Source: Halocatena salina (GTDB lineage: Archaea > Halobacteriota > Halobacteria > Halobacteriales > Haloarculaceae). From it: a stretch of 64,000 bases of DNA. Shown one piece after another: positions 836-62,855 of this stretch (the stretch's first letter is position 1; each line of letters starts with the position of its first letter). The notes beneath the pieces were generated by a model. That model worked only from the letters and a program-made list of their open reading frames with translations, did not search any database and had not been told where the DNA came from. The stretch covers positions 372,001 through 436,000 of the forward strand of contig NZ_CP096020.1 of the NCBI RefSeq assembly GCF_023115355.1, written 5' to 3'. A program made the position numbers and the translations under genes.

Positions 836-1470
836 TCTGATTCGATATGATTGTTTGTTATCATCTAACGATGATCGTTCGTATTCCGATCAAAATCGGA
901 TGGGACTGTTCAGGTCACTCACCGACAGCCGGCATGAATGTGATAATTCTGTCTTTTCCATACACCAAATTATTACCTCATACAAATTAATCTTTCGTTC
1001 TATAAAATAATAAATACATTAATTTTAATATATAAGATAATTATTTGGATGGGGGAGAGGAGTATAGAATCGTATAACCTCTCTATTTGAAGCTGTATAT
1101 CCGTTTTTGGGATAAAGACTCTGTCAATTATGATAAGAAAAATTATAATTAATAATATCGAGCGCGTCTTTGTGTAGAAATATTAGTAATACAGAATTAA
1201 TGCATATCTGTGAATATGCCCTTCACATAATAGTTGGATAGTATACATATCACGAATGAATGATCGACTCATGAGGACTGCAGTTTGGGAGTAATGGTGT
1301 GACTACAACGCTTGACCACAGATAGTACAAAAATATTAATAGTCTATCGGGGGTACAGTTTAGCGTTATTGAGTCAGTACAGCACTATACACCCGAACTC
1401 AATGATAGGTTCCAACCGTACCTATTATTATTCTTATTATTTTTGCCAACTTGAATGATCGTCTTGTGCA
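836..1470. other. AT-rich intergenic region, no gene seen
   Basis: About 635 bases, very AT-rich from roughly 950 to 1450 with many runs of A/T and stops in all frames. It holds the upstream region of the beta-helix gene on the minus strand and the 3' side of the GH97 gene. No convincing ORF, RNA gene or clear TATA box with the right spacing could be picked out because the whole stretch is AT-rich. Confidence 0.6.
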
Positions 1471-4400
1471 TTATGACATCGAGATAAATGGTAATGATGC
1501 CCGTCGATCAGTGGTGTAGGTGAGCGCCTTCTCTTGGGAGGTGTCACCGGGAACTATCACGTCCATGATTCGTGGTGCCATGTCGACTGCGCCAGATGTG
1601 GCACCACCGAAGACGTATTGAGCGTGTTGTTCCTCGACTGGACGAAGTGTTCCTCGATCCTCACATTGTACCATCGGAACGACTTCGAGCTCCGTGGCAT
1701 CGACACCATCGAAGGCGGCCCGGTTGAGGGTCAGGGTGACGGTGCCAGCCGACGTATCGACAGTTTCGTACAGATCGACGGCGTTGCCTTCGTCGTCAGT
1801 CACCGGGGTGCCCGTCGCATCCACGACGCTTTTTGTGAAACCGCTGATCTCCACGCGGTAGTGCCACGATCGTTCGAAGGAGACAGTGGCTTGCAGATCC
1901 TTGAGGCTGTTTCTCGAACCACCGTTTTTGTTGGGATCGCGCACCCAAAGGACGAACATCTGTGGAGAGAACCCGCGGTCGCTTCCGAAAGCGTTGTAGA
2001 GATTCGTGACATCGAACGTGAATTCATAACGACTCGGTGTTTGTTCGACTGTGAACGAGCGCAGATCGAACGCTCCGGGTTCGAACTCGTCGGCAGTCGG
2101 ATAGGTGTAGTTGCCAGGTCCCTCGTCGTCATCCGCCGGATCCGAGAGTGATGCGACGACCTCCGGCGGTTTGACCCGTACGGTTTCCATGGCCAAGGAA
2201 GTCCCGTCAGCCGTTCGTACGGTCACGTCGTACGTACCTGGCGTGTCGATGGTGTAGGAGGACGAATAGGTTCGTTCAGAAGACTGTGGTGGGTAGCGAA
2301 CGTTCGCGCTTGCTTTCCGATCGCCATCAACGACCAACTCGATAGTGGTACCGCCGATGTACGCACCGCTGTTGGACCCTGTTGCCGTGATAAACGGCTC
2401 TTGAACGAACGTTTCGTTGGCGATGGAGACGGTAACGTCTTGGACCGGCCGTTTGTAGGTCGGCAGCTCAACGATTTCCGACCCCCGAGCCGGACGAAGA
2501 CGGATAGCGGTACCGCCCGACTCGATCATCGACGCCACCACCGTCGTACTCGGATCGACGATAGCCGTATCGACACGGACGTCCGAGTGGTTCGTGCCGA
2601 ACGCGGCGTCGATACCGTCGGAGTAGATTTCGGCGACGTATTTTGGACCTGAAGCCGCGTCGTCCGGCTCTCCTGTGCTTTTGGCGGAACCACGCGCACC
2701 GGGAGCGAGGAAATCGAGTGGCACGTCGAGCGCGCGACCGTTTTCATCGGTCATCGCACCGACGTACCACTCATCACCCTTCCGTCGGGCAGTAATCATA
2801 TATTCCCCGATCGAGGAATCGAGCACACGCGTATCGTCCCACCCCGCTGCCGGTACGTCCTCGATGAACTGAAATTCGGGAGCGGTCGGACCGCGGATCG
2901 GATCCTGTGTCGGTTCGGGCATCGGCGCGTCGGTTTCCGTGACAGCGATGGCGTCGAGGTTAAAGCCGCCGGTGTCCTCGTCGGCCACCAGTAAGGTGAT
3001 CTCATTGTCGCCGGACTCCAAGGAAACCGTCGTCGAAACCGTCTCCCAGACGTCCCAGTAGTCGGTAGAGGGAACGCTGATCGTGGTGGTAGTGGATCCG
3101 TTGACCATCACGGTCGCCGTCCGGTCGGTGTCTGCCGGAACGGCGTTGTTCTCCGCGTCACTGGCGTACCGGAGATGAAGCTCGTAATCGCCAGCTCTGT
3201 CGACAGCCGTGACGGTCCAGGAGATCGTCGATCCGGAAGACACGTTCGGATCGATGGGAACGTACGCCTCGCCCTGAGCGTTAGCCCACCGTGCAGCAGT
3301 CGAAAAGCCCTGACGGTCACCGTATTCTGCTTGTGCCACGCTGCCGACGCGCAGGGTGGCCGGCTGGTCGGCTAAGTACGAACTCGGTAGATCGGCGACC
3401 ATTTGGAGGCCGCTGAGGTACGTCGGATACATCGCCAGCTGCTTTGCGCGTGTCGTTTCGATGCCGCCGGATCCCGATTCCATATCGAAGATTCCCGGAG
3501 TAAACTCCACCGGACCTCCGAGCATTCGTGTGAACGGGAACGTTACGTGATGCTCGGGACTGATGGATCCGAAAGAATCGTATTCTTGGCCTTTCACACC
3601 TTCCCGGGTCATGAGGTTGGGATACGTTCGTCGACGACCGGTCGGATGGATCGGCTCGTGAATATCGAGCAGTTGTCGATTCGCCGCCGCCGTCTCGGCG
3701 ACGAGCGTATGATGGTTGACTAACATCTGGTTGTGGTGATTGTGACCCTCACCAGCCAGATCTCCGCTGTCAGCGACGTATCCGTTTTTGATGGTCCGGA
3801 CACCGAGATCGTCGTATAAGCCGAACGCCGCTTCGAGTTGGGACTCGTAGGTCTGAAAGTCTCCGGCTGTCTCGTTGTGCATTGTCATCTGGGTCGGGGG
3901 GTCGAGACTCGGCCCGTAGCTGGTCACCTCCTGGAGATCGAAGTCCGGATACGACGAGGTAAAATCGAACGCGCTTCCGTCACCGGGATAGCTTGACCAG
4001 CCTTGGTTCCACCCTTCGATGAGCACGCCGGAGATACCGTGTTCGCTGGCGAAATCCATGTACTGTTTTGCCCGGCCGGTCTGTGCGCCGTGGGTACCGG
4101 TGTGGGGTCCTTGATACTCCCAGTCGGCGCGATCGGTGATCATCAGCCACCAGATGCCGATGAACTTCTGAGGCTCGATCCAATCGGTTCCCGCCGAAAA
4201 CACGTCGTCGCTGTAATCTTCGTTGAGATTGACGATCAGGTTCGACTCGACGAGGGCTCCCGGCCGAGAGCAGATCTGGATCGTTCGCCACGGTGTCATA
4301 TGTGGCGCGGAAGCAGCTACTTTCGTACCGTCGGGCAGGGGTGCTAACGTGGACTCGAAGTCGGTCCCATCGGTCGGTGTGATAGCGAGCGACGCGTAGT

Positions 4401-5172
4401 CGTCGAGAGCTGCCTCATGGACGCTGACGTAACGGTCCTCGTCCGTCCGCATCGTCATTGGAGTATGTACGCCGTCGAACTCCCCACCCCACTCCGTTTC
4501 GAGCGTCGAAGAAACGTCGCTGAGCGACGTCCGTTCGTACTCCACCTCGAAGTTGTTGTAATCGTTTGGGATCCACCAGGAGGTGTAATCCCCGGCGAAA
4601 TTGTACTCCGTGCGCTCGCTGGTGATGACGAACGGATCTCCGAAGGTGTCGCTAAAGACGAATCGAAACCCGAGCCCATCGTCGAACACCCGCACCGCAA
4701 GCGTTCCGGTCCGTCCCGGCGGCTTGCGTTCCTCGAGTCCCACCCGAAGCTCATGGTACTGCTCGCGAATCTCGTCGTACTGATCCCACACAGGCCTCCA
4801 GGTCGTATTGACTGTCGACCGTTCGCTCCCAGTGACAGTGAGTCCGTCCCGGAACGCGTCCTGGTTTTGGAATTCGAACCCGAGCGCGGAATCCGCGATA
4901 ACCGTGGTTCCGTCGTGGACGACACGGTAGTGCAAACCTCCCTCCGAAGCGTCGATCGTGACTGTTATGTTGCCGTCCGGGGAGGTAACCGTCTGTGTAG
5001 TCGAATCGTCACCATCCGTCACGTGTGCAGCGACGTCGTCCGGAACTGACAGCGAGTACGCCGACGCAGCGAGCGCAGCGACACCTCCAATAAAAGAACG
5101 GCGACTCATCGATGATGTACCCTCTTCGATACATGAATTACCTTCTACGCTGTCTGTCATTCGATCGCTCAT
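1471..5172 (-). CDS. Tat-exported GH97 alpha-glucosidase-type glycoside hydrolase with CBM and glucodextranase-type C-terminal domain
   Basis: 1233 residues, against about 700 for simple GH97 enzymes. The Tat signal is at residues 22-42 (MSRRSFIGG then a hydrophobic stretch). The N-terminal beta-sandwich is at about 55-330 and the catalytic barrel at about 330-610. Glutamates in LIEGWN (E386), MHNETAG (E434), IHEPIHPTG (E506) and GQEYDSFG (E530) match the order and spacing of the calcium-binding and catalytic glutamates of SusB, the inverting GH97 type; the Asp nucleophile of retaining members is not seen (IKNGYV). A CBM6/35-like sandwich (about 615-748) is inserted before the GH97 C-terminal sheet. 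It is followed by an Ig-like segment (905-1000) and a C-terminal domain like that of glucodextranase (1005-1233). The enzyme probably removes alpha-linked glucose outside the cell; the linkage is unknown. Confidence 0.9.
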   Translation of the reverse strand: MSDRMTDSVEGNSCIEEGTSSMSRRSFIGGVAALAASAYSLSVPDDVAAHVTDGDDSTTQTVTSPDGNITVTIDASEGGLHYRVVHDGTTVIADSALGFEFQNQDAFRDGLTVTGSERSTVNTTWRPVWDQYDEIREQYHELRVGLEERKPPGRTGTLAVRVFDDGLGFRFVFSDTFGDPFVITSERTEYNFAGDYTSWWIPNDYNNFEVEYERTSLSDVSSTLETEWGGEFDGVHTPMTMRTDEDRYVSVHEAALDDYASLAITPTDGTDFESTLAPLPDGTKVAASAPHMTPWRTIQICSRPGALVESNLIVNLNEDYSDDVFSAGTDWIEPQKFIGIWWLMITDRADWEYQGPHTGTHGAQTGRAKQYMDFASEHGISGVLIEGWNQGWSSYPGDGSAFDFTSSYPDFDLQEVTSYGPSLDPPTQMTMHNETAGDFQTYESQLEAAFGLYDDLGVRTIKNGYVADSGDLAGEGHNHHNQMLVNHHTLVAETAAANRQLLDIHEPIHPTGRRRTYPNLMTREGVKGQEYDSFGSISPEHHVTFPFTRMLGGPVEFTPGIFDMESGSGGIETTRAKQLAMYPTYLSGLQMVADLPSSYLADQPATLRVGSVAQAEYGDRQGFSTAARWANAQGEAYVPIDPNVSSGSTISWTVTAVDRAGDYELHLRYASDAENNAVPADTDRTATVMVNGSTTTTISVPSTDYWDVWETVSTTVSLESGDNEITLLVADEDTGGFNLDAIAVTETDAPMPEPTQDPIRGPTAPEFQFIEDVPAAGWDDTRVLDSSIGEYMITARRKGDEWYVGAMTDENGRALDVPLDFLAPGARGSAKSTGEPDDAASGPKYVAEIYSDGIDAAFGTNHSDVRVDTAIVDPSTTVVASMIESGGTAIRLRPARGSEIVELPTYKRPVQDVTVSIANETFVQEPFITATGSNSGAYIGGTTIELVVDGDRKASANVRYPPQSSERTYSSSYTIDTPGTYDVTVRTADGTSLAMETVRVKPPEVVASLSDPADDDEGPGNYTYPTADEFEPGAFDLRSFTVEQTPSRYEFTFDVTNLYNAFGSDRGFSPQMFVLWVRDPNKNGGSRNSLKDLQATVSFERSWHYRVEISGFTKSVVDATGTPVTDDEGNAVDLYETVDTSAGTVTLTLNRAAFDGVDATELEVVPMVQCEDRGTLRPVEEQHAQYVFGGATSGAVDMAPRIMDVIVPGDTSQEKALTYTTDRRASLPFISMS

Positions 5173-5183
5173 TTACGATAGAG

Positions 5184-5198
5184 TAACTTAATAATTGT
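5184..5198 (-). promoter_or_regulatory. Probable TATA element of the GH97 gene
   Basis: Read on the minus strand this is CAATTATTAAGTTAC. Its centre lies about 20 bases ahead of ATG 5172 and about 32 ahead of the second ATG at 5160, so the transcript would be leaderless or nearly so. Confidence 0.45.
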
Positions 5199-5231
5199 GG
5201 TGATTGATTCAAATTTTATGAGATAGAATAA

Positions 5232-5265
5232 ATTGATATCAGCCGTAGTAACTCATTGATATCAG
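5232..5265. repeat. Pair of ATTGATATCAG direct repeats upstream of GH97
   Basis: The 11-mer ATTGATATCAG occurs at 5232-5242 and exactly again at 5255-5265, a 23-base step (about two helical turns). Each copy contains the perfect palindrome TGATATCA. The pair lies just upstream of the GH97 TATA element, where an activator or repressor would bind. A single TGATATCA also occurs near 20931, so the core alone may be chance. Confidence 0.45.
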
Positions 5266-5649
5266 ATTTGCTTGACACCGGTACGAGTGTAATGGAGCAA
5301 TCACCTCTGATCTCGTTCCAATATACTAATAGAAGACGTACGCAGCTAAACGCCGGGATATGACTCCGGAGTGTCCACCGGTTTACAGCGGCGTGTCACC
5401 CGGCCGTTTCGAAATTGAATCAGTTACGAACTAATACATCATACATCATTGTTCATTTCTATCGTTTCCACGAACGCACCGACCGGATGACCAAAGACGG
5501 TTCAACGTTCATACCCAAATAGCATGATTTTGGCATCTTTACGGACAGAGCCATCGGAAGGCCGTTTCGGGGTCGACTGGTGAGCGCATTCGACCCGCTA
5601 CCGTCGATGCGTTCGCCATAGCAGCCGCGCGCTCACCGGTTAGTGACGA

Positions 5650-5660
5650 CAAGTTTTTAC
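5650..5660 (+). promoter_or_regulatory. TATA element of tdk
   Basis: AAGTTTTTAC is centred about 27 bases before the tdk ATG at 5683, the spacing of a leaderless haloarchaeal transcript. Confidence 0.6.
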
Positions 5661-5682
5661 TGTCGCCTGCCGCCTGCCCGGT

Positions 5683-6264
5683 ATGAACGCTATCACGAAC
5701 AGCGGTTGGGTGGAGGTGATCACTGGCTGTATGTTTTCAGGAAAAACGGAAGAGCTTCTCCGACGAATACGCCGGGCTGAGATCGCCGATCAGTCGGTCG
5801 CCGTCTTTACGCCAGCTGTCGACGATCGCTACGGTGAGACGACGATCGGTACCCATACGGGCGCGATGTGGACTGCAACGGTAATCGATGAAGATCAGCC
5901 ACAGCAAATCCTTGGCTCACTCGACGGTGAAGAAGTGGTGGCTCTCGACGAAGCGAACTTCTTTTCGTCAGAGCTGGTTTCGGTCTGCAAACGCCTTGCT
6001 GACGACGGTCGCCGGGTCATCGTCAGCGGGACGGATCAGACGTTTCGCGCCGAACCGTTCGAACCGCTCTCACAGCTCATGACGCTCGCAGAGTACGTCG
6101 ATAAACTGCAGGCAATCTGTACGCAGTGTGGTGAACCCGCAACGCGTAATCAGCGACTCATCGACGGTGAACCCGCTCACTACGACGATCCAACGATCAT
6201 GGTTGCCGCGGAGGAATCCTACGAAGCTCGGTGTCGCAACTGCCACGTCATCCGGCGGGAGTGA
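5683..6264 (+). CDS. tdk: Thymidine kinase (type II, zinc-binding)
   Basis: 193 residues, the usual length of type II thymidine kinases, which phosphorylate thymidine to dTMP with ATP in nucleotide salvage. The P-loop GCMFSGKT is at 15-22 and the catalytic acid is in DEANFF (E90; the family more often has Gln after the Ala). The lasso/zinc region has paired cysteines CTQC (146, 149) and CRNC (184, 187). The late GTDQTFRAEPF segment is the thymidine-site loop. The gene stands alone with its own TATA element between two glycosidase genes and has no evident link to them. Confidence 0.96.
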   Translation: MNAITNSGWVEVITGCMFSGKTEELLRRIRRAEIADQSVAVFTPAVDDRYGETTIGTHTGAMWTATVIDEDQPQQILGSLDGEEVVALDEANFFSSELVSVCKRLADDGRRVIVSGTDQTFRAEPFEPLSQLMTLAEYVDKLQAICTQCGEPATRNQRLIDGEPAHYDDPTIMVAAEESYEARCRNCHVIRRE

Positions 6265-6642: not shown

Positions 6643-9600
6643 ATGAATGAAAACGAGCCATCTACGTCGAAGACGGACAGCTACGCGACGACTCGCCGAC
6701 GGTTTCTTCAGATGACTGGGGGATCCGCTCTCTTAGCGACCGCGTGGACCCCCGAGACGGTCGCCGCAGCGTCGCCATCCGAACCCGCGACGAAGACCGG
6801 TGGTCCCGGCCGGATCACCAACCTCGATGCGTACATCGAAAACCCGTCTGTGTTCGAACAGCACCGCGAACCGACCCACGCTACGGCGACGATACCGTAC
6901 GGTTCCGTCGAGTCGGCCCGCCGATCTGACGAGCGATTCACATCGCTCGGTGATCGGTTCACCGAATCGGAGTACTGTACGCTGTTGAACGGGGAGTGGC
7001 GCTTTTCGTTCTACGAACGACCAGACCAGAGACCGTCGGATCATGCAGCGACCGACTGGGAAACCAGTACGGTTCCACGTCCGTGGCAGATCGACGGCTA
7101 CGACCAGCAGATCTACGCCAACTGGCAAGAGACGTGGGTGCATTATGAGCCACAACTAGAGGGCGACCTAGTTCCAAGCGATGGCAGCGTCGACGTTCCC
7201 GACGTAAACCCTACGGGCACGTATCAGAGAGAGTTTCGCGTTCCTGCCGACTGGGACGACCGACAGGTGTTCGTTCACTTTGCTGGCGTCAAACAGGCGT
7301 ACTTCGTGTGGATAGACGATCAGTACGTCGGCTTCCAGCAAGGATCGATGACGCCGGGTGAATTCGACATCACCGAACACGTCACCCCCGGCAACGAACA
7401 CGAGATCACAGTTCAGGTGTACCGCTTCTCCGACGGAGAGGCGCTCGAAGCGATCGACATGTTCCGGTACGCCGGGATCTACCGGGACGTCTATCTGTTC
7501 TCAACGCCGTCCGTCCACGTTCGGGATTTCGCCGTTCAGTCCGAGCTTGACGACGCATACCGGGACGGGAACCTACGGATCGATGCCGAGTTGACGAACT
7601 ACGCCGGCGCTGAAGGGGACACGTATTCGATCCGCGCTTCGCTCTACGAACCGGACGGTGACGGGACGAAAGCGGAGCTGGTCGGTCAGACGACAGTCGA
7701 CTCCGACGGCGGGGTCGTGAGTATGGAACGCACGATTCGGCGTCCCGAGCAGTGGTCCGCCGAGCAGCCGACCCTGTACACGCTCGTGCTCGAACTGATT
7801 TCCGAACGCGGGCGAACGACGGAAGTGTTGCTCGACAAAGTGGGTTTCAGAACCTACGAAACCAGTCGTGGTGGTCCCGGTGCGCAGGTGTTGGTCAACG
7901 GTCAACCGGTGAATCTACGTGGCACGAACCGCCACGAAACCGACCCGGAGACAGGACGAACGATGCCCCTCGAAACGATGCGAGCCGACATCGAACTGAT
8001 GAAGCGGTTCAACGTCAACGCCGTTCGAACGTCGCATTATCCGAACGATCCGACGTTTCTTCGGCTCGCCGACGAATACGGCATCTACGTGATGGACGAG
8101 GCCTGTTGTGAAACACACTGGTGGGAAGGTGTGCTCGCCGAAACGGATGGTTACCACGAACAGGCCATCTCCCGGTTCCGGCGAATGGTACTTCGGGACC
8201 GCAATCACGCGTCGGTGTTCTCGTGGTCAACGGGCAACGAGGCGGGAACAGCGGCCGAGCACATCGACATGGCTGCTCTGGCGGTTGGACCGGACGATCC
8301 GACGATCCCAGACAGTACCGCCGATGCGACTCGGATCGCCGGAGAACCGTCCGAGGCCTCCGAGGGGACCGTCGAAACGCCCGGACTAGCTCCGGATCGG
8401 CTGTTGTACCACCAACCGAACCACGGCGGATGGGACATCGAATTCGCCGATATGCTCGGACCACGGTACATCGAACTCGACACGTTGTTGGGACTAGCGG
8501 AAGGAGCTGATGTCAGCGACAGTCCCCGGTTCGGCGATCGTTCCAGTGGTGACGGCTCGCCCGGTGCAGGCAACCGACCGGTCGTGATGGGGGAGTACAA
8601 TCACGCCATGGGGAACAGTCTCGGACTCGTTCACCGGATGTGGTCCGAACACATCCAGCCGACAGTCAGGCGCGCCCGCGATAGGTCTGAAAACGATCAC
8701 GACGGCGTTCTCGTCGGGTCGCCGACCGTCGATACCGGACAGACAGGCGGGTGTATCACCGTTCGTGGCGACGATCACGTCGCCGTTGAGGACACGGACG
8801 CACTCGATTTCACCACCCCTGGATTTTCGATCGCGGTTTCGTTCGCCGAGATCCATCCGAAAACGAGCATCGATCTCGTTTCGAACGACGGACAGTACGC
8901 GCTGTCGCTTAAACCCGGTCGTCGGCCAGCGTTCAGCGTGGGTGACCGTTCGGTTGTCGGATCGCCGTTGACAGCGGCGAGCGAAGAGGGATGGCACACG
9001 CTCGTCGGCATCTGTCGGGAAGATCGTCTCCAGTTGTACTTCGACGACGAACTGGTGACCGAAACCGGTCGGTCACCGGAACAGATCGATAACGGAGGGA
9101 CGGTTCGGATCGGAACGTCCGGCCACCGCGGCCGATCCGAACCGCCCGTGACGATCGATTCCGTTCGCGTTTTCGATCGCGCGCTGTCGGTCGACGAGAT
9201 ACGGACTCTCGATCCCGAAGAGACGGTTCTCGACTACTCGTTCGAGACGCTGTTGCGCGATAAAAGCCTCCACGGCGGCTTCATCTGGGACTGGGTAAAC
9301 CAGGATCTCACACGGACGACCACCGACGACGGGGAGCAACGACGCTACCAGTTCTACGATGGGAATCCCTTCTGTCTCAACGGGATGGTCTGGTCCGACC
9401 GCAAACCACAACCCGAACTCTGGCAGCTCAAACACAGCCATCAGCCGGTGAAAGCCGAATCGCTCGATCTATCTGCAGGGGAGCTGTACGTCACCAATCA
9501 CCACCAGTTCACGAACGTGAATGAACTCGACTGTCGGTGGACGCTCGTTGCCGACGAGGTGGTCCAGTCGGGCACGTTGGATCTCGACATCGAACCGGGA

Positions 9601-10710
9601 GAGACACGACCAGTACAGGTGCCGTTCGAGCAACCGACCGATCCTGTGCCCGGAATGGAGTACTGGTTACATCTTTCGTTTCAACAGTCCGACAAGACTG
9701 ACTACGCCGATGCAGGTCACGAGGTCGCCCGTGAACAGTTCGAGATACCGGTCGAGCAGCCGGAACGAACGGCAGTTGGTGCCGGGCAACCGCCACGCGT
9801 GTCCGAAACGGCGACGGCGGTGACAGTCACGGGAACGAACTTCGAATACGAGATCGACAAAATGGCGGGGACCCTCACATCGATGCGCCACGAGGGAACT
9901 GACATTCTCGATCGGGGACCGTTGTTCAACGCATGGCGTGCGCCGCTCATGAACGACGCCCAAGAGTGGAACGGTGAGCAGGTCTCAGACTGGCGGACAG
10001 CCGGACTGGACGCACTCGATCACCACGTCGAGTCCGTGAGCGTCTCACGAACGGACGAGCACGTTCGGGTCGATATCGAGGGCTTCGCCCGCGGGAACGA
10101 AGCAGACGGGGCGTCTCCAGCCGGATTCGAGACGACCTACCAGTATCGGGTCTTCGGCAACGGTGCCATCACGATCACCGTCGACGCAGTGCCGAACGAC
10201 GAACTGAAAGCCATCGTTACGGGATACCTTCCCAAAGTCGGAGTACAACTGGAGCTACCGAGCCGCTTTGGTGACGTCGAGTGGTACGGTCGGGGACCAC
10301 AGGAGACGTATCCGGATCGAAAAACCGGCGTCGACATCGGTCGATACGCCGGAACGGTGGCCGACCAGTACGTACCCTACCTCCCACCGACGGACAACGG
10401 CAACAAGACGGACACCAAGTGGGTGGCGCTCACTGACGAGAAAAGCGGACTACTCGCCCTCGGAGCGGAGCCGATGAACGTGAGTTGCAATCGGTTTTCG
10501 AACCTAGCAGCGGCCGACCACGAGTACGAACTCGAAGACCGGGGATCGGTTGCGGTCAACCTCGATCACCGCGTCTCCGGCGTCGGTGGCACGCCGATCG
10601 CTCCATTCGAGGAACATCAAGTCAAACCGGTCGAAACGTCGTTCGAAGTCAGCCTTCTCCCCTTCGACGCCGAGGCTAAAGATCCCATGACACTCGTGCA
10701 TTCGGATTAA
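6643..10710 (+). CDS. Tat-exported GH2 beta-galactosidase with LamG domain inserted in the catalytic barrel
   Basis: 1355 residues against about 1023 for E. coli LacZ. The Tat motif TTRRRFLQ at 16-23 is followed by a hydrophobic run and AAA. The sugar-binding domain has LNGEWRFSF. In the barrel the acid/base is in TGNEAGT (E533) and the nucleophile in GEYNHAMGNS (E651), both as in LacZ, followed by GGFIWDWVNQ at about 877. Between the nucleophile helix and that last barrel strand sits a LamG/concanavalin-like domain (about 700-867) with IAVSFAEI, GWHTLVGICRED, LQLYFDDE and VRVFDRALSVDEI. LacZ has only a short loop there. The C-terminal LacZ small-chain domain (NAWRAPLMND) is present. The enzyme likely removes beta-galactose outside the cell; other beta-hexoses are possible. 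Confidence 0.93.
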   Translation: MNENEPSTSKTDSYATTRRRFLQMTGGSALLATAWTPETVAAASPSEPATKTGGPGRITNLDAYIENPSVFEQHREPTHATATIPYGSVESARRSDERFTSLGDRFTESEYCTLLNGEWRFSFYERPDQRPSDHAATDWETSTVPRPWQIDGYDQQIYANWQETWVHYEPQLEGDLVPSDGSVDVPDVNPTGTYQREFRVPADWDDRQVFVHFAGVKQAYFVWIDDQYVGFQQGSMTPGEFDITEHVTPGNEHEITVQVYRFSDGEALEAIDMFRYAGIYRDVYLFSTPSVHVRDFAVQSELDDAYRDGNLRIDAELTNYAGAEGDTYSIRASLYEPDGDGTKAELVGQTTVDSDGGVVSMERTIRRPEQWSAEQPTLYTLVLELISERGRTTEVLLDKVGFRTYETSRGGPGAQVLVNGQPVNLRGTNRHETDPETGRTMPLETMRADIELMKRFNVNAVRTSHYPNDPTFLRLADEYGIYVMDEACCETHWWEGVLAETDGYHEQAISRFRRMVLRDRNHASVFSWSTGNEAGTAAEHIDMAALAVGPDDPTIPDSTADATRIAGEPSEASEGTVETPGLAPDRLLYHQPNHGGWDIEFADMLGPRYIELDTLLGLAEGADVSDSPRFGDRSSGDGSPGAGNRPVVMGEYNHAMGNSLGLVHRMWSEHIQPTVRRARDRSENDHDGVLVGSPTVDTGQTGGCITVRGDDHVAVEDTDALDFTTPGFSIAVSFAEIHPKTSIDLVSNDGQYALSLKPGRRPAFSVGDRSVVGSPLTAASEEGWHTLVGICREDRLQLYFDDELVTETGRSPEQIDNGGTVRIGTSGHRGRSEPPVTIDSVRVFDRALSVDEIRTLDPEETVLDYSFETLLRDKSLHGGFIWDWVNQDLTRTTTDDGEQRRYQFYDGNPFCLNGMVWSDRKPQPELWQLKHSHQPVKAESLDLSAGELYVTNHHQFTNVNELDCRWTLVADEVVQSGTLDLDIEPGETRPVQVPFEQPTDPVPGMEYWLHLSFQQSDKTDYADAGHEVAREQFEIPVEQPERTAVGAGQPPRVSETATAVTVTGTNFEYEIDKMAGTLTSMRHEGTDILDRGPLFNAWRAPLMNDAQEWNGEQVSDWRTAGLDALDHHVESVSVSRTDEHVRVDIEGFARGNEADGASPAGFETTYQYRVFGNGAITITVDAVPNDELKAIVTGYLPKVGVQLELPSRFGDVEWYGRGPQETYPDRKTGVDIGRYAGTVADQYVPYLPPTDNGNKTDTKWVALTDEKSGLLALGAEPMNVSCNRFSNLAAADHEYELEDRGSVAVNLDHRVSGVGGTPIAPFEEHQVKPVETSFEVSLLPFDAEAKDPMTLVHSD

Positions 10711-11046: not shown

Positions 11047-11066
11047 CATGCACATGCAGTTGATTG

Positions 11067-14018
11067 ATGGAGTTTCGAAGGATGATGGATACGACTCGCC
11101 GAAACCTACTCGCAATCGTCGGGATCGGGACTGGGATGGCGTTGACCGGTACCGCCGTGAGTGCAGATTCTGAAGAGGATCGCACCGAAGAGCAAGCGCG
11201 TGGCTCAGAGCGCGTGAACGACCACATCGAGGAAGTGATCGATCGTCTCGCTACAGAGGAGAAGGTGTCGTTATTACACCAGTACCAACCGTCGATTCCG
11301 AGCGTAGATCTCGATTCGTTTCGGACTGGGACGGAGGCGTTACACGGCGTTGCGTGGCTCGGGGAAGCGACCGTCTTTCCGCAGGCCATCGGACTGGGTA
11401 GCACGTGGGATCCGGGGTTGATCGAACGAGTCGGCAGTGCCGTGGGTGATGAGGTCCGGGGAAAACACAACGCCAGTTCCGGAACAGTCGGTCTCAACGT
11501 TTGGTCGCCAACGGTCGATCCGCTCCGAGATCCTCGGTGGGGACGGAACGAAGAAGGGTATTCAGAGGATCCCCTGTTGAGTGGTGCGATCGCAACAGCA
11601 TACACGGACGGTCTCACTGGTGACGACCCGAACTATCTCAAAACGGCACCGGTGCTCAAACATTTCATTGGCTACAACAATGAGACCGATCGGACGACCA
11701 CCAACGCCGAGATACCGCCCCGGCTGTTACACGACTATTACCTCCCGTTTTTCCGTCCCCCGATCGAGGCAGGCAACGCTGTCGGAGTGATGGCATCGTA
11801 CAACCTCCTCAACGGGCGGCCGATGACGGTCTCACCGTTTTTGAACCGATACGTCCGCGATTGGGCACCCGACGGTGGATCGGTGCTGAACGTCAGCGAC
11901 GCGTGGGCACCGATGAACCTGACCGAGGCCCAAGATTACTTCGAATCGAAGGAGAAAGCCCGCGCCAGTGCACTGACCGCGGGTTTGGACAGCTTCACCG
12001 AACATGGATCCGACAGTTCAACCACGACCGAGGCACTACTCGGCGCGCTCGATGCGGGGTATCTGGACGAGGCGGATCTCGACGAAGCAGTCGGTCACGT
12101 TCTACGGGTTCGGGCACTGCTCGGAGAGTTTTTGCCGCCGTCGGAAGATCCCTACGCGGATCTCACTGCTGACGTCATCGGACGGCCTGCTCATCGAGAG
12201 CTGGCCCGTGAGACAGCACGCAAACAGACCGTTCTCCTCAAAAACGATCCCGAAGTGCTTCCGATTTCGGAAGACGACAGCGTTGCCGTTCTCGGACCCT
12301 TATCCGACAGGCTGTTCGAGGATTGGTACAGCGGGACGATGCCGTACCGGAACACCCCCGAGGACGGTGTACGCGATCGGATCGGTGCCGAACAGGTTCA
12401 CACCGCCGTCGGCGCCGATCGGATCGCGCTTCGGGAACGGGACTCGGGGAAGTACGTCACAGCCGGTGTCGGCAAAGGCGGCGGCGTCCTCGGACTCAGC
12501 GATACCGACGCTCCTAACGTACAGCTGTTCGAAACGGTACAGTGGACGGAAACCGCATGGACGCTCCGGGCAACGGCGAACGACCGGTACGTGACTGTCG
12601 ATGGCGACCAACTCATCAACTCTTCGGAACGGCCCGCGGGCTGGGAGGTGGTCCAAGAGGCCTTCGAGTTCGTCGATGTCGACGATGGTGTAGTGCTTCG
12701 ACACCCGAGCAGCGATCGCTACGTAGCGATCACGGATGGATCGCTTCACGCTACTGCCGAACAGCGGTCCGACGCCACCAGATTCGTTCGCGACGTACGC
12801 CACGACGGTATCGAGACGGCGATCGAAACCGCGAGCGACGTGGACGTCGCTGTCGTCGTGGTCGGCACACACCCCCTGATGGGTGGCCGTGAAACACGGG
12901 ATCGCGAAACGCTTGCCATTGCTCCGTCCCAACGGGAGTTACTCGCGCGCGTCGCTGACGCCCAGTCACAGACCGTACTGGTTATCGAAAGCAGCTATCC
13001 CGTTCGCGTAGAAGAAGAAAAGCGTCTTCCCTCGATCCTGTGGACGAGCCATGCCGGGCAGGAAACCGGTCGCGCGGTGGCCGACGTGTTGGTCGGCGAC
13101 ATCTCTCCCGGTGGTCGGTTGCCCCAGACGTGGCCGCGATCTGTCGAGCAACTGCCGGACATAACGGAGTACAACATCGCCGAAACGGGAATGACCTATC
13201 GCTACGGACAGGCGAATCCGCTGTACGCATTCGGGCACGGACTCTCATACAGCAGCTTCGAATACGACGATCTCCGTGTGTCCCCACGAGGGCCGCTCGA
13301 ATCGGGTGCCACCGCGACCATCAGCGTCCGAGTGACCAACACCGGATCGATGGCTGCTGACGAAGTCGTCCAGTTCTACACCACACGGCACCAGTCAGGA
13401 ACAACTCACCCCGATCGCGTTCTCCGGGGATTCGATCGGGTGCACCTCGCACCCGGTGAGAGCACGACGGTCGAATGCGCCATCGATCACGAGGCGTTCT
13501 CCGTTTGGGACGTAACACGACGAAAACGGATCGTCGAACGGGCGAGCCATTCGGTGCTCGTCGGTGCTGCCTCCGATGACATCCGGCTACGCGGATCACT
13601 ACGGGTCAACGGTGAACGGATTCCACCGCGCGATCTATCCGAGGAGACGCGGGCAGTCGATGCCGACGACTGGTCGTGGTCGGAGGTCGAGCTACTCGAT
13701 CGGTCACGGATGGACGGAACGGTCGTCGGCATGACCGATGGATCGTGGATCTCGTTCGCCGATGTCGATCTCCGACACAAGCCAACTGAAGCGACCGTTT
13801 CGGTCGCCCGATCGGAGCCCACCTCGACGACGATCGAACTCCGCCATGGCTCTCGATCCGGACGGTTGTTCGGCCGGACCGACGTGCCGTCGACCGGTGA
13901 CGTGTACGAATACACGGAGCTCTCTATCCCCGTGAGCGGGATGACTGGAAACAGACAGGATCTCTGTCTCGTGGTTCGTGGTGGAACCGTCCGCGTAAAC
14001 ACGATCCGACTCGAATGA
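11067..14018 (+). CDS. Tat-exported GH3 beta-glucosidase/beta-xylosidase-type enzyme with beta-trefoil-like insert
   Basis: 983 residues from ATG 11067, chosen by TATA spacing (a TTG lies one codon upstream; ATGs at 11082 and 11085 also fit). Tat motif TTRRNLLAIVG. The GH3 N-terminal barrel has VDPLRDPRWGRNEEGYSEDP, LKHFIGYNNE and the nucleophile segment NVSDAW (D278). The second GH3 domain has ETARKQTVLLKND and later GGRLPQTWP, then FGHGLSYSSFEY and a fibronectin-like domain. Where many GH3 enzymes carry PA14, residues about 446-580 instead form a fascin/beta-trefoil-like repeat (GKYVTAG, DRYVTVDGD, DRYVAITDG). The last 110 residues look like a CBM6-type sandwich. It probably removes terminal beta-linked sugars outside the cell; specificity is unknown. 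Confidence 0.9.
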   Translation: MEFRRMMDTTRRNLLAIVGIGTGMALTGTAVSADSEEDRTEEQARGSERVNDHIEEVIDRLATEEKVSLLHQYQPSIPSVDLDSFRTGTEALHGVAWLGEATVFPQAIGLGSTWDPGLIERVGSAVGDEVRGKHNASSGTVGLNVWSPTVDPLRDPRWGRNEEGYSEDPLLSGAIATAYTDGLTGDDPNYLKTAPVLKHFIGYNNETDRTTTNAEIPPRLLHDYYLPFFRPPIEAGNAVGVMASYNLLNGRPMTVSPFLNRYVRDWAPDGGSVLNVSDAWAPMNLTEAQDYFESKEKARASALTAGLDSFTEHGSDSSTTTEALLGALDAGYLDEADLDEAVGHVLRVRALLGEFLPPSEDPYADLTADVIGRPAHRELARETARKQTVLLKNDPEVLPISEDDSVAVLGPLSDRLFEDWYSGTMPYRNTPEDGVRDRIGAEQVHTAVGADRIALRERDSGKYVTAGVGKGGGVLGLSDTDAPNVQLFETVQWTETAWTLRATANDRYVTVDGDQLINSSERPAGWEVVQEAFEFVDVDDGVVLRHPSSDRYVAITDGSLHATAEQRSDATRFVRDVRHDGIETAIETASDVDVAVVVVGTHPLMGGRETRDRETLAIAPSQRELLARVADAQSQTVLVIESSYPVRVEEEKRLPSILWTSHAGQETGRAVADVLVGDISPGGRLPQTWPRSVEQLPDITEYNIAETGMTYRYGQANPLYAFGHGLSYSSFEYDDLRVSPRGPLESGATATISVRVTNTGSMAADEVVQFYTTRHQSGTTHPDRVLRGFDRVHLAPGESTTVECAIDHEAFSVWDVTRRKRIVERASHSVLVGAASDDIRLRGSLRVNGERIPPRDLSEETRAVDADDWSWSEVELLDRSRMDGTVVGMTDGSWISFADVDLRHKPTEATVSVARSEPTSTTIELRHGSRSGRLFGRTDVPSTGDVYEYTELSIPVSGMTGNRQDLCLVVRGGTVRVNTIRLE

Positions 14019-14086: not shown

Positions 14087-15247
14087 ATGGGATCGCTTCG
14101 TTTAGCAACGGTTACCAAACAGTATGACGACGTCGTCGCGGTCGACGGGATCGACCTTGACATCGCCGATAGCGAGTTCATCTCGCTCGTCGGTCCGTCC
14201 GGCTGTGGAAAATCGACGACGCTCGAGATGATCGGAGGGCTAACGACACCCAGCGACGGAAAGGTGTTCATCGACGATCAAGATGTGACCGACCTTCCGC
14301 CGAAGGATCGTAATCTAGCGATGGTCTTTCAGAACATCGCTCTCTTTCCCCACATGAACGTGTATGATAACATCAGCTATGGACTCCGAATCCGCAACAC
14401 CGATCCGGAGGAGATCGAGCGACGAGTGAACGACGCCGCCGAGACGCTCCAACTCGAAGGGCTGCTTGAGCGCAGTCCGAGCGAGCTATCCGGTGGCCAG
14501 CGCCAACGCGTCGCGATCGGCCGTGCGATCGTTCGCAATCCGTCGGTCTTTCTGATGGACGAGCCGCTCGCCAACTTGGATGCGAAGCTGCGCGTCCACA
14601 TGCGCACGGAACTCCAGCAGCTCCAGCGTGAGCTGGACGTGACGACGATCTACGTCACGCACGATCAAGAGGAGGCGATGACGATGTCGGATCGCGTTGC
14701 GGTGATAAACGACGGGACGCTCCAACAGATCGCTCCGCCACTGACCTGTTACAACGAGCCAGCCAATCGGTTCGTCGCCGGCTTCATCGGCTCTCCCTCG
14801 ATGAACTTCGTCGACGGTTCGATCAAGGGGACACAGTTCGTCGCCGAAAGCCTGCGCATCGATCTCGGTGATATCGATTGCGATGGTGTGTCCGACGTTA
14901 CACTCGGGATCCGTCCCGAACACATCCATTTCCCTGACGCCGACCTGCCGGAGAACACCGAGCCGATCGACGCAACCGTCGACGTACTCGAACCGATCGG
15001 AGAGAAGATCTTCGTCTATCTGGACGCGGGACTGGAAAAAGCCACGAGCGGAGACTGGTCCGATGCCGAAGACGAGACCGTGGGCCGTTCGCAGTTCCTG
15101 ATGAGCGCACCCTCCGACTCGACGATCGAAGAGGGCGAATCCGTCGAGATCGTCTTCGATCGGACGAGCATTCACCTTTTCGAGACCGCAACAGGCGAAG
15201 CGATCGCACACGGCATCGTCTCGGAGCCGACCAAGCCAACACGATGA
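14087..15247 (+). CDS. Sugar ABC transporter ATP-binding protein (MalK/UgpC family)
   Basis: 386 residues, the length of MalK-type ATPases that power sugar uptake at the membrane. Walker A GPSGCGKST starts at residue 36; the Q-loop is in MVFQNIALFPHM, the signature is LSGGQRQRVAIGRA, Walker B FLMDEP, and the H-loop is in YVTHDQEEA. The C-terminal third is the TOBE/MalK regulatory part. It is the first gene of a four-gene operon, and its stop overlaps the start of the binding-protein gene by four bases. Its position after three exported glycosidases suggests it imports the sugars they release. The substrate cannot be read from the sequence. Confidence 0.93.
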   Translation: MGSLRLATVTKQYDDVVAVDGIDLDIADSEFISLVGPSGCGKSTTLEMIGGLTTPSDGKVFIDDQDVTDLPPKDRNLAMVFQNIALFPHMNVYDNISYGLRIRNTDPEEIERRVNDAAETLQLEGLLERSPSELSGGQRQRVAIGRAIVRNPSVFLMDEPLANLDAKLRVHMRTELQQLQRELDVTTIYVTHDQEEAMTMSDRVAVINDGTLQQIAPPLTCYNEPANRFVAGFIGSPSMNFVDGSIKGTQFVAESLRIDLGDIDCDGVSDVTLGIRPEHIHFPDADLPENTEPIDATVDVLEPIGEKIFVYLDAGLEKATSGDWSDAEDETVGRSQFLMSAPSDSTIEEGESVEIVFDRTSIHLFETATGEAIAHGIVSEPTKPTR

Positions 15248-16680
15248 GCGAACGTTCATACCACCAGGTCCGTTCGATCGATCGACGCGACCTCCTCAGG
15301 TCCGTCGGTGCGGGTGGAATCGTCAGTTTGGCCGGCTGTTTGAGCTGGGGAGAGACGTCGAGTGGATCGAACGGAACGACGATTCAGATAACTGCACCCG
15401 ACGAATGGCGCAACGCCGCCTCGGAGGTCACACAAAACCTCTACGATGCGGGCATGTCCGAGGATATCCACATCGAGATGGCGAGTCCGGGCCAGACGAC
15501 GGACGACTCGCTCGCCCAGTATCAGCAGTGGCTCTCAGCGGGACTCTCTACGCCCGACCTGCTGGTCTGTGACGTCGGGTGGATCCGACCGTTCATCGTC
15601 CGAGACCAGCTGTTGAGCTTGGACGACATGCTCCCCGACGAGACGCTCACCCGGATCCGAGAGCAGTACGTCGCCCAGAGCGTCCAGTCGGCGACCGGTG
15701 ACGACGGAAACTTGTATGCCGTACCGCTGTATCCCGACCTGCCAACGATCCAGTACCGACGCGATCTCGTGGAGAACGCCGGGTACGACTGGCAACAACA
15801 CGCGACCGATCCGCTCTCTTGGAAGCGGTTCGCCGCCGAGCTACAGGACGTCTACGAGCAATCCGACGTCGATTACGGATTCAACTGGCAGGCTGCCTCC
15901 GAACTGCAACTCGCGTGCTGTGTGTTCAACGAGTTTCTGAGTTCGTGGGGTGGTGCGTATTTCGGAAATCCAATGGAAAACCTCTACACGATCGGAGATC
16001 GACCGGTAACGGTCACCGAAAAACCCGTGCTCGATTCGCTCCGGATGGCACGGACGTTCATCCATGGAACGGACACACCCGATACGCTGGACGGGTTCAC
16101 CGGGGGGATTACCTCGACGGAGGCCTTTCAGTGGGGACTCTCGCCGTCAATGCGGCCGTTCACGCAGAACAACGCGGTCGCACTGCGCAACTGGCCGTAC
16201 TCGATCAACATCAACGGTGCCAGCGATGCCCTCGGCGAATCGATGGGCGTGATGCCGATGCCCTACGGCGTACCCGAAGGTGATGGGAAATATCCCGGCA
16301 CAGGCGGATCGATCGCGGCGCTCGGTGGATGGAACTACGCGGTGAACCCCGAGACCGAACACCGGGAGGCCTGTGTCGAATTCCTCCAAGCGCTTACCAC
16401 CGAATCGTTCCAGCTCGCAAACTTCTCGCTCATCGGTCATATCCCGCCGATACCTGACGTGCTTGCCAGTGCGACCGACGTTTCGATCATGGGTCGGTAC
16501 GTCGAGACGCTCACCTACGCCAGCGAACACTCGCTTGCCAGACCGGCAACGACGATCTGGCCCGAGCAGTCACAGGTCGTTGCCCAAGAGGCAAACGGAG
16601 TGATGATGGGAGACTACACACCGGAGGAGGGAATGGATCGGCTTGCGAATCGTCTCAAACGGATCGAAGGATCAGTCTGA
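15244..16680 (+). CDS. Sugar ABC transporter substrate-binding lipoprotein (family 1)
   Basis: 478 residues. The N-terminus has a Tat motif (DRRDLLRS, R14-R15) running into a lipobox SLAGC (C32), so the mature protein is a Tat-exported lipoprotein held at the outer face of the membrane. The body has the alternating pattern of family-1 solute-binding proteins: LVCDVGWIRPFI, YAVPLYPDLPTIQYRRDL (hinge region) and GGSIAALGGWNYAVNPETEH. Its start overlaps the ATPase stop by four bases and it is followed by a permease three bases on. The large binding domain suits an oligosaccharide or disaccharide. Confidence 0.9.
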   Translation: MSERSYHQVRSIDRRDLLRSVGAGGIVSLAGCLSWGETSSGSNGTTIQITAPDEWRNAASEVTQNLYDAGMSEDIHIEMASPGQTTDDSLAQYQQWLSAGLSTPDLLVCDVGWIRPFIVRDQLLSLDDMLPDETLTRIREQYVAQSVQSATGDDGNLYAVPLYPDLPTIQYRRDLVENAGYDWQQHATDPLSWKRFAAELQDVYEQSDVDYGFNWQAASELQLACCVFNEFLSSWGGAYFGNPMENLYTIGDRPVTVTEKPVLDSLRMARTFIHGTDTPDTLDGFTGGITSTEAFQWGLSPSMRPFTQNNAVALRNWPYSININGASDALGESMGVMPMPYGVPEGDGKYPGTGGSIAALGGWNYAVNPETEHREACVEFLQALTTESFQLANFSLIGHIPPIPDVLASATDVSIMGRYVETLTYASEHSLARPATTIWPEQSQVVAQEANGVMMGDYTPEEGMDRLANRLKRIEGSV

Positions 16681-16683
16681 GCT

Positions 16684-17679
16684 ATGGCGACGGAAAACAC
16701 ACCATCGACGGACACACGGCGACCGAGCCATCGGCTCGATCTTGCCGTGTTGGATCGTATCGAACGCTTGAGCGAAACCCAGTTCGTTTATCTCATGTTG
16801 ATCCCGGTGTTGCTCTTGTTGGGATCGATGGCGATCTGGCCACTGCTGTACACAGCGAACCTCTCATTGCACGCCGACAACGTACTGAGCCCCGATCTCG
16901 TTGGAGGCTTCGTCGGGCTACAGAACTACGTCGATCTACTGACCGGCAAAGCGAATCCGATTCTCCGACGGCCCTTTTTCGATCTGAGCCGACCCTTTAC
17001 GAGTGCTGTGCCAGTGACGCTCTTGTTTACGCTCGGTGCAGTCGTGATCGAGACGATCTTGGGCTTTGCGATGGCGCTGGTGCTTGATCAACGCTTTCGC
17101 GGGCGGCGCTTTGCGCGTGTCGCCATGATCCTTCCGTGGGCCGTCCCGATCGTGATTCAGGGGATGATCTTCTATCTCATGTTCCAGCCCTCGATCGGTT
17201 TCGCGGTTGGTCCACTGAACGATCTCGGGCTCATTTCCTCCTCGCCGCTTGCGAACAGTCAGGATGCGCTTTTGATCAGCATCCTCGCCGACATCTGGAA
17301 ACAGTCGGCGTTCATGGCATTGCTGATACTCGCTGGACTCCAGAGCATCGATCGGTCGCTGTATGAAGTAGCCAAGGTCGAGGGAGCCTCACGGTTGCAG
17401 CGCTTCCGGACGATCACGTTCCCCTTGGTGTTGCCCGCGCTCCTCGTTGCCCTACTCTTTCGGACGATCGCGGCGCTCAAAGTGTACGGCGTCGTTGAGA
17501 CCGTCGCTAGCTGTAACACGGTGCCGACAGTGAGCTGTCTCGTCGTCACGACGTGGAACGCCCACCGCTACGGCTCAGCAGCGGCGATCGCATTTCTCAT
17601 TGCGATCGCCATCGGGCTGTTGTTACTGATCTATCTCGTCCAATTCCGCGGCGAAGAAGGTGGGGGGCTTGGTATCTGA
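16684..17679 (+). CDS. Sugar ABC transporter permease (MalF/UgpA type)
   Basis: 331 residues with about six membrane spans; the first is around 37-60 (VYLMLIPVLLLLGSMAIWPLLY). The EAA loop that contacts the ATPase reads YEVAKVEGASRLQRFRTITF. The N-terminal cytoplasmic tail is about 30 residues. It lies three bases after the binding-protein stop, and its own stop overlaps the next permease start (TGATG). It forms one half of the membrane channel. Confidence 0.92.
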   Translation: MATENTPSTDTRRPSHRLDLAVLDRIERLSETQFVYLMLIPVLLLLGSMAIWPLLYTANLSLHADNVLSPDLVGGFVGLQNYVDLLTGKANPILRRPFFDLSRPFTSAVPVTLLFTLGAVVIETILGFAMALVLDQRFRGRRFARVAMILPWAVPIVIQGMIFYLMFQPSIGFAVGPLNDLGLISSSPLANSQDALLISILADIWKQSAFMALLILAGLQSIDRSLYEVAKVEGASRLQRFRTITFPLVLPALLVALLFRTIAALKVYGVVETVASCNTVPTVSCLVVTTWNAHRYGSAAAIAFLIAIAIGLLLLIYLVQFRGEEGGGLGI

Positions 17680-18599
17680 TGATGGGAGACCGTGAAGATA
17701 CGGAACGAAACCTAATCCAGCAGTACGCGCGACGGGCCATCGAGCGCCCAGAGTCGGCCTACCGCGTGCTCCTGTACGTCGTGATCGCGTTCTTCCTGCT
17801 CGCGTCTCTGTTTCCGTTTTACTGGCTGCTCGTGATCGCCCTGACACCGAACCGATCGATCGTGGATATGGGGCTGCTTCCGAAGGGCTTTCAGCCGTGG
17901 GTATTCGTCGAAGTGTTCGAGACGATCCCCTTCCACATCTACATGCTGAACAGCGTTATTATCGCCACGCTGACAACGATCGTTGTGCTGTTCGTCGGCA
18001 GCATTGCCGGCTACGTCTTCGGTCGATACGACTTCCCGGGACGCACGCCGTTGTTGCTGGTCGTACTCGTGGTCTCGTATTTCCCCGGTGTGGCGTTTCT
18101 GATTCCGCTTTTCCAACTGTTCACCGCGAACATCGAGTTCCTCGGCGTACAATCGCCGATGCTGTACAACACCCCGTGGAGTATCGTCATGCCGCTCAGT
18201 GCGCTCACGATGCCGCTGATCATCTTTCTGCTGTCGACGTTCTACGCCCAGATCCCGGAGGGGCTCGAAGACGCTGCACGAATCGAAGGCTCGACACGGC
18301 TCGGCGCGCTCGTTCGGATCATCATCCCGCTGTCGGCTCCCGGATTCGCCACCGCAGGAATCCTTTCATTCATCATCGTTTACAACGAGTTCTTCTTCTC
18401 GTATCTGATGGTGAGCGGGACGGCCACTGGAGGGGCACCGATTCTACACGGTATCTTCCAGTTCCAAGGGAGCCAACAGGTGGCCTACGATCTGATGGCG
18501 GCGGCGAGCATCATCGGCGTGATCCCAATGGCAGTACTCGTAATGTTCGCTCAGGACCACATCGTCAGTGGTCTCACACAGGGAGCACTCAAGGAGTAG
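17679..18599 (+). CDS. Sugar ABC transporter permease (MalG/UgpE type)
   Basis: 306 residues from the ATG that overlaps the upstream stop by one base. A longer upstream frame would run back through the preceding permease and encodes an arginine-rich stretch, so it was not used. There are six membrane spans, the first at about 24-47, and the EAA loop is EDAARIEGSTRLGALVRIII. It pairs with the preceding permease as the second channel half. Confidence 0.92.
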   Translation: MMGDREDTERNLIQQYARRAIERPESAYRVLLYVVIAFFLLASLFPFYWLLVIALTPNRSIVDMGLLPKGFQPWVFVEVFETIPFHIYMLNSVIIATLTTIVVLFVGSIAGYVFGRYDFPGRTPLLLVVLVVSYFPGVAFLIPLFQLFTANIEFLGVQSPMLYNTPWSIVMPLSALTMPLIIFLLSTFYAQIPEGLEDAARIEGSTRLGALVRIIIPLSAPGFATAGILSFIIVYNEFFFSYLMVSGTATGGAPILHGIFQFQGSQQVAYDLMAAASIIGVIPMAVLVMFAQDHIVSGLTQGALKE

Positions 18600-20519: not shown

Positions 20520-21039
20520 TCTACAACACCTACCTTGAGCTATGGTGGATCAGAACTATAAAATCAAGTAGCCATTTTGAGATCACTATATACGAACGCC
20601 GAACGAGATACATTCGTTCGAATCGGGCCGCTTACTGTCGTCGATAGTGATCAGATATCTAACTATGATAGAAAAATTATATTTATGGGGATAGTTTCGA
20701 TTGGTAAAACGAAGAGGGCTAGCTGTGAGTAGCCTTCGTGGCAGTAGTTCGATAGCGAAAAGCGAACCGATAATCGACAACACGACCCTCGATAGAGATA
20801 GAAATCGTTATTACCGGCGCGTGAAACATCCCAAAACACATGGAACTGGATCTCGGTCGAAACGTCGTTCAAACCAATAATGTCAGATTAAATTTATTAT
20901 ATGATATATTTTGATAATCAGAACTTATTTGATATCACATGTGTATGTCGGTGTCGATGGTTCGTACCCCTACTGCTCGGGCACTCCGGTTCACAAACGC
21001 TTACCCCGCTCGGACGGCAAGATAACAAATACGATAGCA
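20520..21039. other. Divergent intergenic region between protoglobin and mre11
   Basis: About 520 bases, AT-rich, with no supported gene. An element reading GATTTTATAGTT on the minus strand at about 20555-20566 may serve the protoglobin gene. A 24-codon ORF from 20841 ends in AT-rich DNA and looks like chance. The palindrome TGATATCA occurs near 20931. Confidence 0.5.
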
Positions 21040-56172: not shown

Positions 56173-56501
56173 TGCTGTCAACGCCTCCAACCTCCGTTGA
56201 AAGTGAATTGTTAAAAACCTTTTGTCGGTCGAACAGATGAAGCCGACGATTTCGTAGCCGGTGATGCCGGATACAGTCACCATCAAAATCCGACGCCAGC
56301 ACTGGCATCAACTACGATCCGTATGCCGTTACACGCGTACGGATGTAACTGCCGATCAGTTGTGACATGGGAGCTGCGGAAAACGTCCGGTGGTATCGGA
56401 CGCTGTGAGCAGAGCGAGATCTGAAAGGAGGCGGTGAGTAATCAGTAGCGCAGTAGTAAGCGATACGAACGGAACCGGAACGATCCGGTAATGGGGGACG
56501 A
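56173..56501. other. Intergenic region upstream of the PL11 gene
   Basis: About 330 bases with no gene. GTTAAAAAC at 56210-56218 (GTTTTTAAC on the minus strand) is a likely TATA element about 41 bases before the PL11 ATG, giving a short leader that contains a GGAGG. The rest shows nothing recognisable. Confidence 0.5.
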
Positions 56502-57536: not shown

Positions 57537-57576
57537 ACACGAGCAACTCCATGAACCGCTGTACACTGGGGTGCGG

Positions 57577-57589
57577 TCACCAGCTATAA
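57577..57589 (-). promoter_or_regulatory. TATA-like element of the zinc dehydrogenase gene
   Basis: Read on the minus strand CCCCTTTATAGCT lies about 47 bases before ATG 57536, so a leader of about 20 bases is likely. Confidence 0.35.
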
Positions 57590-57625
57590 AGGGGTTTGGG
57601 AGTTCGTTCGAAAACCGCTACGTAC

Positions 57626-57639
57626 GATAAATATTTAAG
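57626..57639 (+). promoter_or_regulatory. TATA element of the SGNH hydrolase gene
   Basis: GATAAATATTTAAG is centred about 27 bases before ATG 57661. Confidence 0.6.
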
Positions 57640-57660
57640 AGGAGCGCACGCCCTGCTGGT

Positions 57661-58668: not shown

Positions 58669-58727
58669 CACCCCTATGGAGCCAACCGCGGATAGTCCCT
58701 GAATTTATTATCGAAAATATTTAATTA

Positions 58728-58738: not shown

Positions 58739-58759
58739 TATAAAATATATAGATGTAGT

Positions 58760-62832: not shown

Positions 62833-62855
62833 CGGTGTCTCGTTGGATGGGGGGC

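Follow-up and report, generated by a model that had tools for sequence, protein, structure and literature searches.

The window analysed here is a stretch of 64,000 nucleotides from Halocatena salina, and the gene under study is a single ORF encoding a GH2 protein with a LamG module set into its catalytic barrel. The gene, its parts and its neighbours are listed below, with amino-acid (aa) positions referring to the 1355-aa GH2 protein.

1471..5172, minus strand: GH97 gene with CBM6-type and Glucodextran_C domains (best NCBIfam match retaining α-galactosidase, below cut-off)
6643..10710, plus strand: GH2 β-galactosidase-type gene with twin-arginine (RRRFLQ) N-terminus, 1355 aa, single ORF
6985..7509, plus strand: GH2_N jelly-roll domain, aa 115-289 (Pfam)
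7513..7851, plus strand: domain 2, Glyco_hydro_2, aa 291-403 (Pfam)
7885..8643, plus strand: GH2_C, first part of the catalytic barrel, aa 415-667 (Pfam)
8239..8241, plus strand: acid/base E533, LacZ E461 by alignment
8593..8595, plus strand: nucleophile E651 at the end of β7, LacZ E537 by alignment
8620..8655, plus strand: barrel helix α7, aa 660-671 (predicted structure)
8674..9252, plus strand: LamG module, apparently circularly permuted, inserted at site II, aa 678-870
8932..8946, plus strand: aa 764-768, lacking the F-x-Y...W that is conserved in other GH2-LamG modules
9223..9246, plus strand: TVLDYSFE, aa 861-868, the canonical first LamG strand, C-terminal here
9268..9294, plus strand: barrel strand β8 and GGFIWDW, aa 876-884 (W882 is LacZ W568, hand-read from the alignment)
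9487..9750, plus strand: LacZ_4 domain, aa 949-1036 (Pfam)
9829..10653, plus strand: Bgal_small_N domain 5, aa 1063-1337 (Pfam)
11064..14018, plus strand: GH3 gene with a CBM6-type domain
14087..18599, plus strand: sugar ABC transporter (ATPase, binding protein, two permeases)

The LacZ-type set of GH2_N, GH2, GH2_C, LacZ_4 and Bgal_small_N domains is complete and in order, all above their Pfam cut-offs, and by alignment the LacZ active-site residues are kept (H431, R462, H465, E490, H492, E533, Y609, E651, H654, W882, F910 and N913). The nucleophile motif GEYNHAMGN lies at 650-658 and GGFIWDW at 878-884, while the leader, RRRFLQ, reads directly as twin-arginine type. As judged from its sequence, the protein is an exported GH2 enzyme of β-galactosidase type whose activity is predicted; against NCBIfam Bga2A it scores 742 bits, below the cut-off of 999. 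An assembly artefact was ruled out as the source of the insert, since the insert is shared by an 88%-identical orthologue and recurs in more than 20 independent genomes, and so was a misreading of two adjacent genes as one, the frame being single and open without an internal stop.

From the gene context, one can reasonably suppose that the organism grows on pectic side chains. In Haladaptatus halobius a relative adjoins a GH97 gene and the same kind of transporter, and in Haloterrigena turkmenica another lies beside genes for KDG kinase, mannonate dehydratase and KDG-phosphate aldolase. Elsewhere in the window, a thymidine kinase gene (5683-6264) sits between the GH97 and GH2 genes, and positions 54235-63189 hold what looks like a pectin-degradation cluster (a rhamnogalacturonan lyase of RGL11 type, an α-L-rhamnosidase and a β-helix protein). 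Positions 20911-28598 carry a run of Mre11-like, Rad50-like, NurA and HerA genes; these fall far below the NCBIfam cut-offs for housekeeping Rad50 and HerA and have sub-family matches to defence ATPases. The run is possibly a divergent repair or defence cassette.

The initial annotation had noticed LamG features between the nucleophile segment and GGFIWDW, in a domain of about 165 residues lying inside the catalytic barrel rather than at a terminus, and had pointed to a profile search, a structure prediction and a count of proteins sharing the insertion as ways of checking it. The domain and its place in the barrel are borne out: Laminin_G_3 matches aa 709-853, between E651 and GGFIWDW, at 47.1 bits (E 3.6e-12), above the curated Pfam cut-off of 27.6. 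The length is not, as E651 and the first G of GGF are 227 residues apart here versus 27 in GH2 proteins without the insert, which makes the insert about 200 residues long, with the module at 678-870. When aa 673-875 were modelled alone, an all-β domain was obtained (pLDDT 93.5, pTM 0.91), for which VIA-align gave Z scores of 16-18 against jelly rolls of ConA/LamG type, one of them the C-terminal domain of AbnA, a GH43 arabinanase. On this model the insert is a separate ConA-like β-sandwich of LamG type, as had been expected. At the top of a Foldseek list for the LamG stood jelly-roll subdomains from the binding regions of clostridial toxins, which at 9-18% identity we take as fold matches only; the single LamG sequence found one weak match among solved structures, 4qvs (E 0.0035).

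Where the insert sits with respect to the active site is a separate matter. A model of aa 290-1355 (pLDDT 80.7, pTM 0.84), whose GH2 part outside the LamG superposes on LacZ with Z 37 across 732 residues, gives the order β7 (647-651), α7 (660-671), LamG strands, a short helix (868-873) and β8 (876-881). Alignment with relatives that do not have the insert (for example L028, ...GLVERFWEEIEEHDQLQGGFIWDW) likewise places it where helix α7 ends. The α→β loops of a (β/α)8 barrel face opposite to the catalytic β→α loops, and the LamG, being in the α7-β8 loop, would therefore lie on the non-catalytic face. The proposal that the insert stands close to the active-site mouth is thus not supported by barrel topology, which puts the modelled LamG on the back of the barrel, although packing into an oligomer could bring this back face near the active site of a neighbouring subunit. 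Those paralogues that do have a LamG on the catalytic side have it inserted after β8.

The module appears to be permuted as well as displaced. In many ordinary LamGs from ten genomes searched, a W/Y-x-F-D strand precedes the conserved D-x-S-G-N-x-x-x-G by some 15-25 residues, and nothing like that strand was found after the last helix of those LamGs. The GH2-embedded modules have no such front strand and instead carry (A)VLWLDF(D/E) behind the core. We moved the last 15 residues of each module to its front and scored the result against a profile of 19 ordinary LamGs. This rotation raised the score in 67 of 68 GH2 modules, by 9.8 bits on average, and the rotated strand outscored a shuffled strand in 66 of the 68 (modules that are related and not independent). 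The canonical strand order, with the first strand N-terminal, is therefore not that of the GH2 modules, and we class the window's copy as a permuted LamG. Circular permutation, with the usual first strand at the C-terminus, is strongly indicated for the GH2-embedded modules by these sequence comparisons. For the window's module taken alone the indication is modest: its score rises from 55.1 to 60.8 bits on rotation, against 58.9±1.1 for shuffles, 17 of 300 of which reach 60.8, and its terminal strand is degenerate (TVLDYSFE), where that of relatives is clear (TVLWYDFDD).

By deleting the LamG modules and aligning the hosts, we could map the insertions to four sites (LacZ positions are from the alignment):

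Site I: domain 2, window ~360, LacZ ~291
Site II: α7-β8 loop, LacZ ~557-560
Site III: after β8, LacZ ~575-595
Site IV: Bgal_small_N, window 1152-1160, LacZ ~843-849

All 27 bacterial examples that could be placed (23 from genome contigs, plus L174, L175, L179 and L180) have site III, which also occurs in a few haloarchaeal proteins. Site II, the one before β8, was seen in haloarchaea only, in 23 of the 391 genomes sampled in the class. Site I was seen only alongside III and site IV only alongside II, and sites II and III never together in one of the placed proteins. Relatives of the window's protein carry one or two LamGs in Bgal_small_N at about aa 1152-1160. A five-sequence haloarchaeal profile gave no match in 241 genomes of one bacterial phylum, a result that carries no information, as the known GH2-LamG of that phylum was missed too; a bacterial query against 249 genomes of another phylum gave only three matches, all with the LamG after β8. 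These placements strongly indicate that LamG modules of one family occupy four loops of a single scaffold.

Several of the proteins mapped deserve a description of their own. L045 and L046 have two tandem LamG modules in Bgal_small_N that come from different branches of the LamG tree, and in their relatives just one of the two is kept, not always the same, which looks like the loss of a member of an ancestral pair each time. Two GH2 paralogues, one from the Halocatena salina genome itself (L043:11846-17065, contig C3; 1740 aa) and one from L049 (1683 aa), carry LamGs at sites I and III; their nucleophile motifs are altered to GEYAPVEGN and GEYQIMSGN from the usual GEYxHAMGN, and their specificity may have changed. 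The 1740-aa paralogue also has ricin-type lectin repeats, and the site-I LamG of both lies beside the point equivalent to loop 272-288 of LacZ; in LacZ that loop extends into the active site of the adjacent subunit. On the Haladaptatus salinisoli plasmid L176 the GH2 is split into adjacent genes, 1501-4527 and 4574-6205, the first for a 1008-aa protein of domains 1-4 with a LamG after β8 and the second for a 543-aa Bgal_small_N protein, an arrangement that resembles bacterial LacL/LacM. Four other haloarchaeal plasmids have two annotated features under the match, and a genome of the same genus as L176 (G277, L044) has one in-frame TAA near the position of L176's gene boundary.

In a host tree built without the LamG columns, the site-II proteins form one clade (SH-aLRT 95), all 25 members of which retain the LamG, within a larger group whose other members have site III or no LamG. 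In the LamG tree (a quick method, with many weak forks) the site-I copies cluster with those that the same proteins carry at site III, and the site-II modules join some of the site-IV modules (IVa; support 98), the remaining site-IV copies forming a group of their own (support 100). These groupings, of I with III and of II with part of IV, suggest duplication within the gene, and we regard it as strongly indicated that some of the insertions arose in this way. The ancestor of the window's clade may already have had site IV, with a later loss in that clade; two separate gains of site IV are also possible.

The modules at the four sites also differ in a surface signature. KGDxQYALK...LxFFVYD..W is common, with some exceptions, to the GH2-LamGs at sites I, III and IV and to three basal site-II proteins; it spans bacteria and archaea and is mostly absent from ordinary LamGs. 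As the signature persists independently of insertion site, it is probably a ligand surface rather than a host interface. K79, F89, Y91 and W96 are found in half to all of the modules of the other site groups and in none (0%) of the 22 derived site-II modules, counting those that have a residue there, the window's included. A 1387-aa paralogue in the Halocatena salina genome has its signature intact. The derived modules have a hairpin motif of their own, F-S/T-V-G, which could form a new binding surface. From such comparisons we infer an ancestral GH2-LamG with carbohydrate as its ligand and docking of the enzyme to its substrate as its role; a loss of sugar binding at site II would be a second step, presupposing that ancestral binding. 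The insert had been described as a sugar-binding fold, and of this the LamG fold stands, while sugar binding by the window's copy is doubtful, the signature residues of the other sites being gone.

The window's LamG is nevertheless under purifying selection. Compared with L006, its ω is 0.18, against 0.11 for the host. The ω of LamG-II was above that of the host in all seven pairs and above that of LamG-IV in five of five, with values of 0.18-0.43, well below 1, and the site-II LamG was the less conserved copy in 43/43 protein pairs carrying both it and a site-IV LamG (pairs that are not independent). Loss of the signature under purifying selection suggests a folded accessory domain whose ancestral binding surface has been lost.

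Our main reading, to which we give a probability of roughly 0.55, is that the gene encodes an exported GH2 enzyme with a permuted LamG in the α7-β8 loop, off the active-site face, and that this derived copy stays folded with its surface lost. The ancestral LamG would have been a carbohydrate binder docking the enzyme to its substrate; in the derived site-II clade, the window's copy included, the surface would have been lost and the fold retained, and the present role would most likely be that of a structural or remodelled accessory domain that does not line the active-site mouth.

The same data could be read in other ways. The site-II LamG might still be a working carbohydrate-binding module that anchors the enzyme to a polymer from the back of the barrel through a remodelled surface. 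An ω of 0.18 indicates a domain that is maintained, the derived modules share their own hairpin motif, the gene adjoins GH97, GH3 with CBM6 and a sugar transporter, and a LamG gave a 5.8-fold gain on larch arabinogalactan in a bifidobacterial GH146 enzyme (PMC10850190). We nonetheless think it rather unlikely, given that the signature of every other site class, and of bacteria, has been lost and that the copy at site II was the less conserved one in every pair with site IV. Relaxed constraint (ω higher than the host's in 7/7 pairs) and the lost surface would also suit a neutral passenger, tolerated since its ends lie close together and without a function of its own; an ω that stays at 0.18-0.43, a confident fold model and retention in 25/25 proteins of the clade make such a passenger highly improbable. 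A LamG placed beside the active-site mouth, as the initial annotation saw it, and lengthening the substrate cleft would fit the bacterial and some haloarchaeal relatives, in which it lies after β8, just before the segment equivalent to F601/N604. The window's insert precedes β8, in an α→β loop, and the rest of the barrel aligns with LacZ, which leaves this arrangement with very little probability here.

Beyond the folded, surface-lost copy in the window, we tentatively suggest, at slightly worse than even odds, that the permuted LamG is an insertion cassette of one family, whose copies, made by duplication in the gene, were inserted anew at four loops and afterwards divided their roles. One move would then have taken it from the catalytic face (after β8) to the opposite face (before β8), the domain-5 copy would have kept the conserved surface as the barrel copy lost it, and the window's lineage would have shed the intact domain-5 copy. 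Domain insertion is usually studied site by site. Here one small domain, its permuted boundaries fixed, occupies four loops of one scaffold, with relatives that have no insert at each loop serving as controls, so that loop tolerance, permutation as a preparation for insertion and surface decay beside a second copy can all be tested on LamG and GH2.

Compared with LacZ-type β-galactosidases (E. coli LacZ; T. maritima 6s6z/6sd0), the enzyme has the same five-domain layout, catalytic residues and modelled fold, and differs in its 200-residue insert at LacZ ~557-560 and its twin-arginine leader; the alignment has a gap at LacZ residue 999. The isolated LamG has the same fold as the AbnA C-terminal domain (5hp6; Z 16.7 over 175 residues), whereas its strand order appears permuted relative to LamG/ConA-type folds, the last modelled strand (aa 863-865) lying outside the aligned range. 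In CE20 esterases (PMC12313940) an ancillary β-sandwich is likewise spliced into a catalytic domain, the SGNH domain, but it forms part of the active site, where the window's LamG is by topology on the other side. For circularly permuted LamGs or LamGs within GH2 barrels, the open-access papers searched yielded only PMC5145203, a 2016 domain-architecture survey, which lists GH2 proteins with Laminin_G_3 'between GH2C and DUF4981'. Host family and inserted Pfam domain are those of the window, the place on the Pfam map is similar, and the section consulted makes no mention of permutation or of further LamG sites. A LamG in GH2 was thus already known; the before-β8 site, the permutation, the spread over four sites and the loss of the signature were not found in the open-access papers searched. 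Every bacterial GH2-LamG that could be placed has the module after β8, whereas the window's precedes it, and the label 'GH2C-LamG-DUF4981' on a domain map conceals two distinct three-dimensional arrangements.
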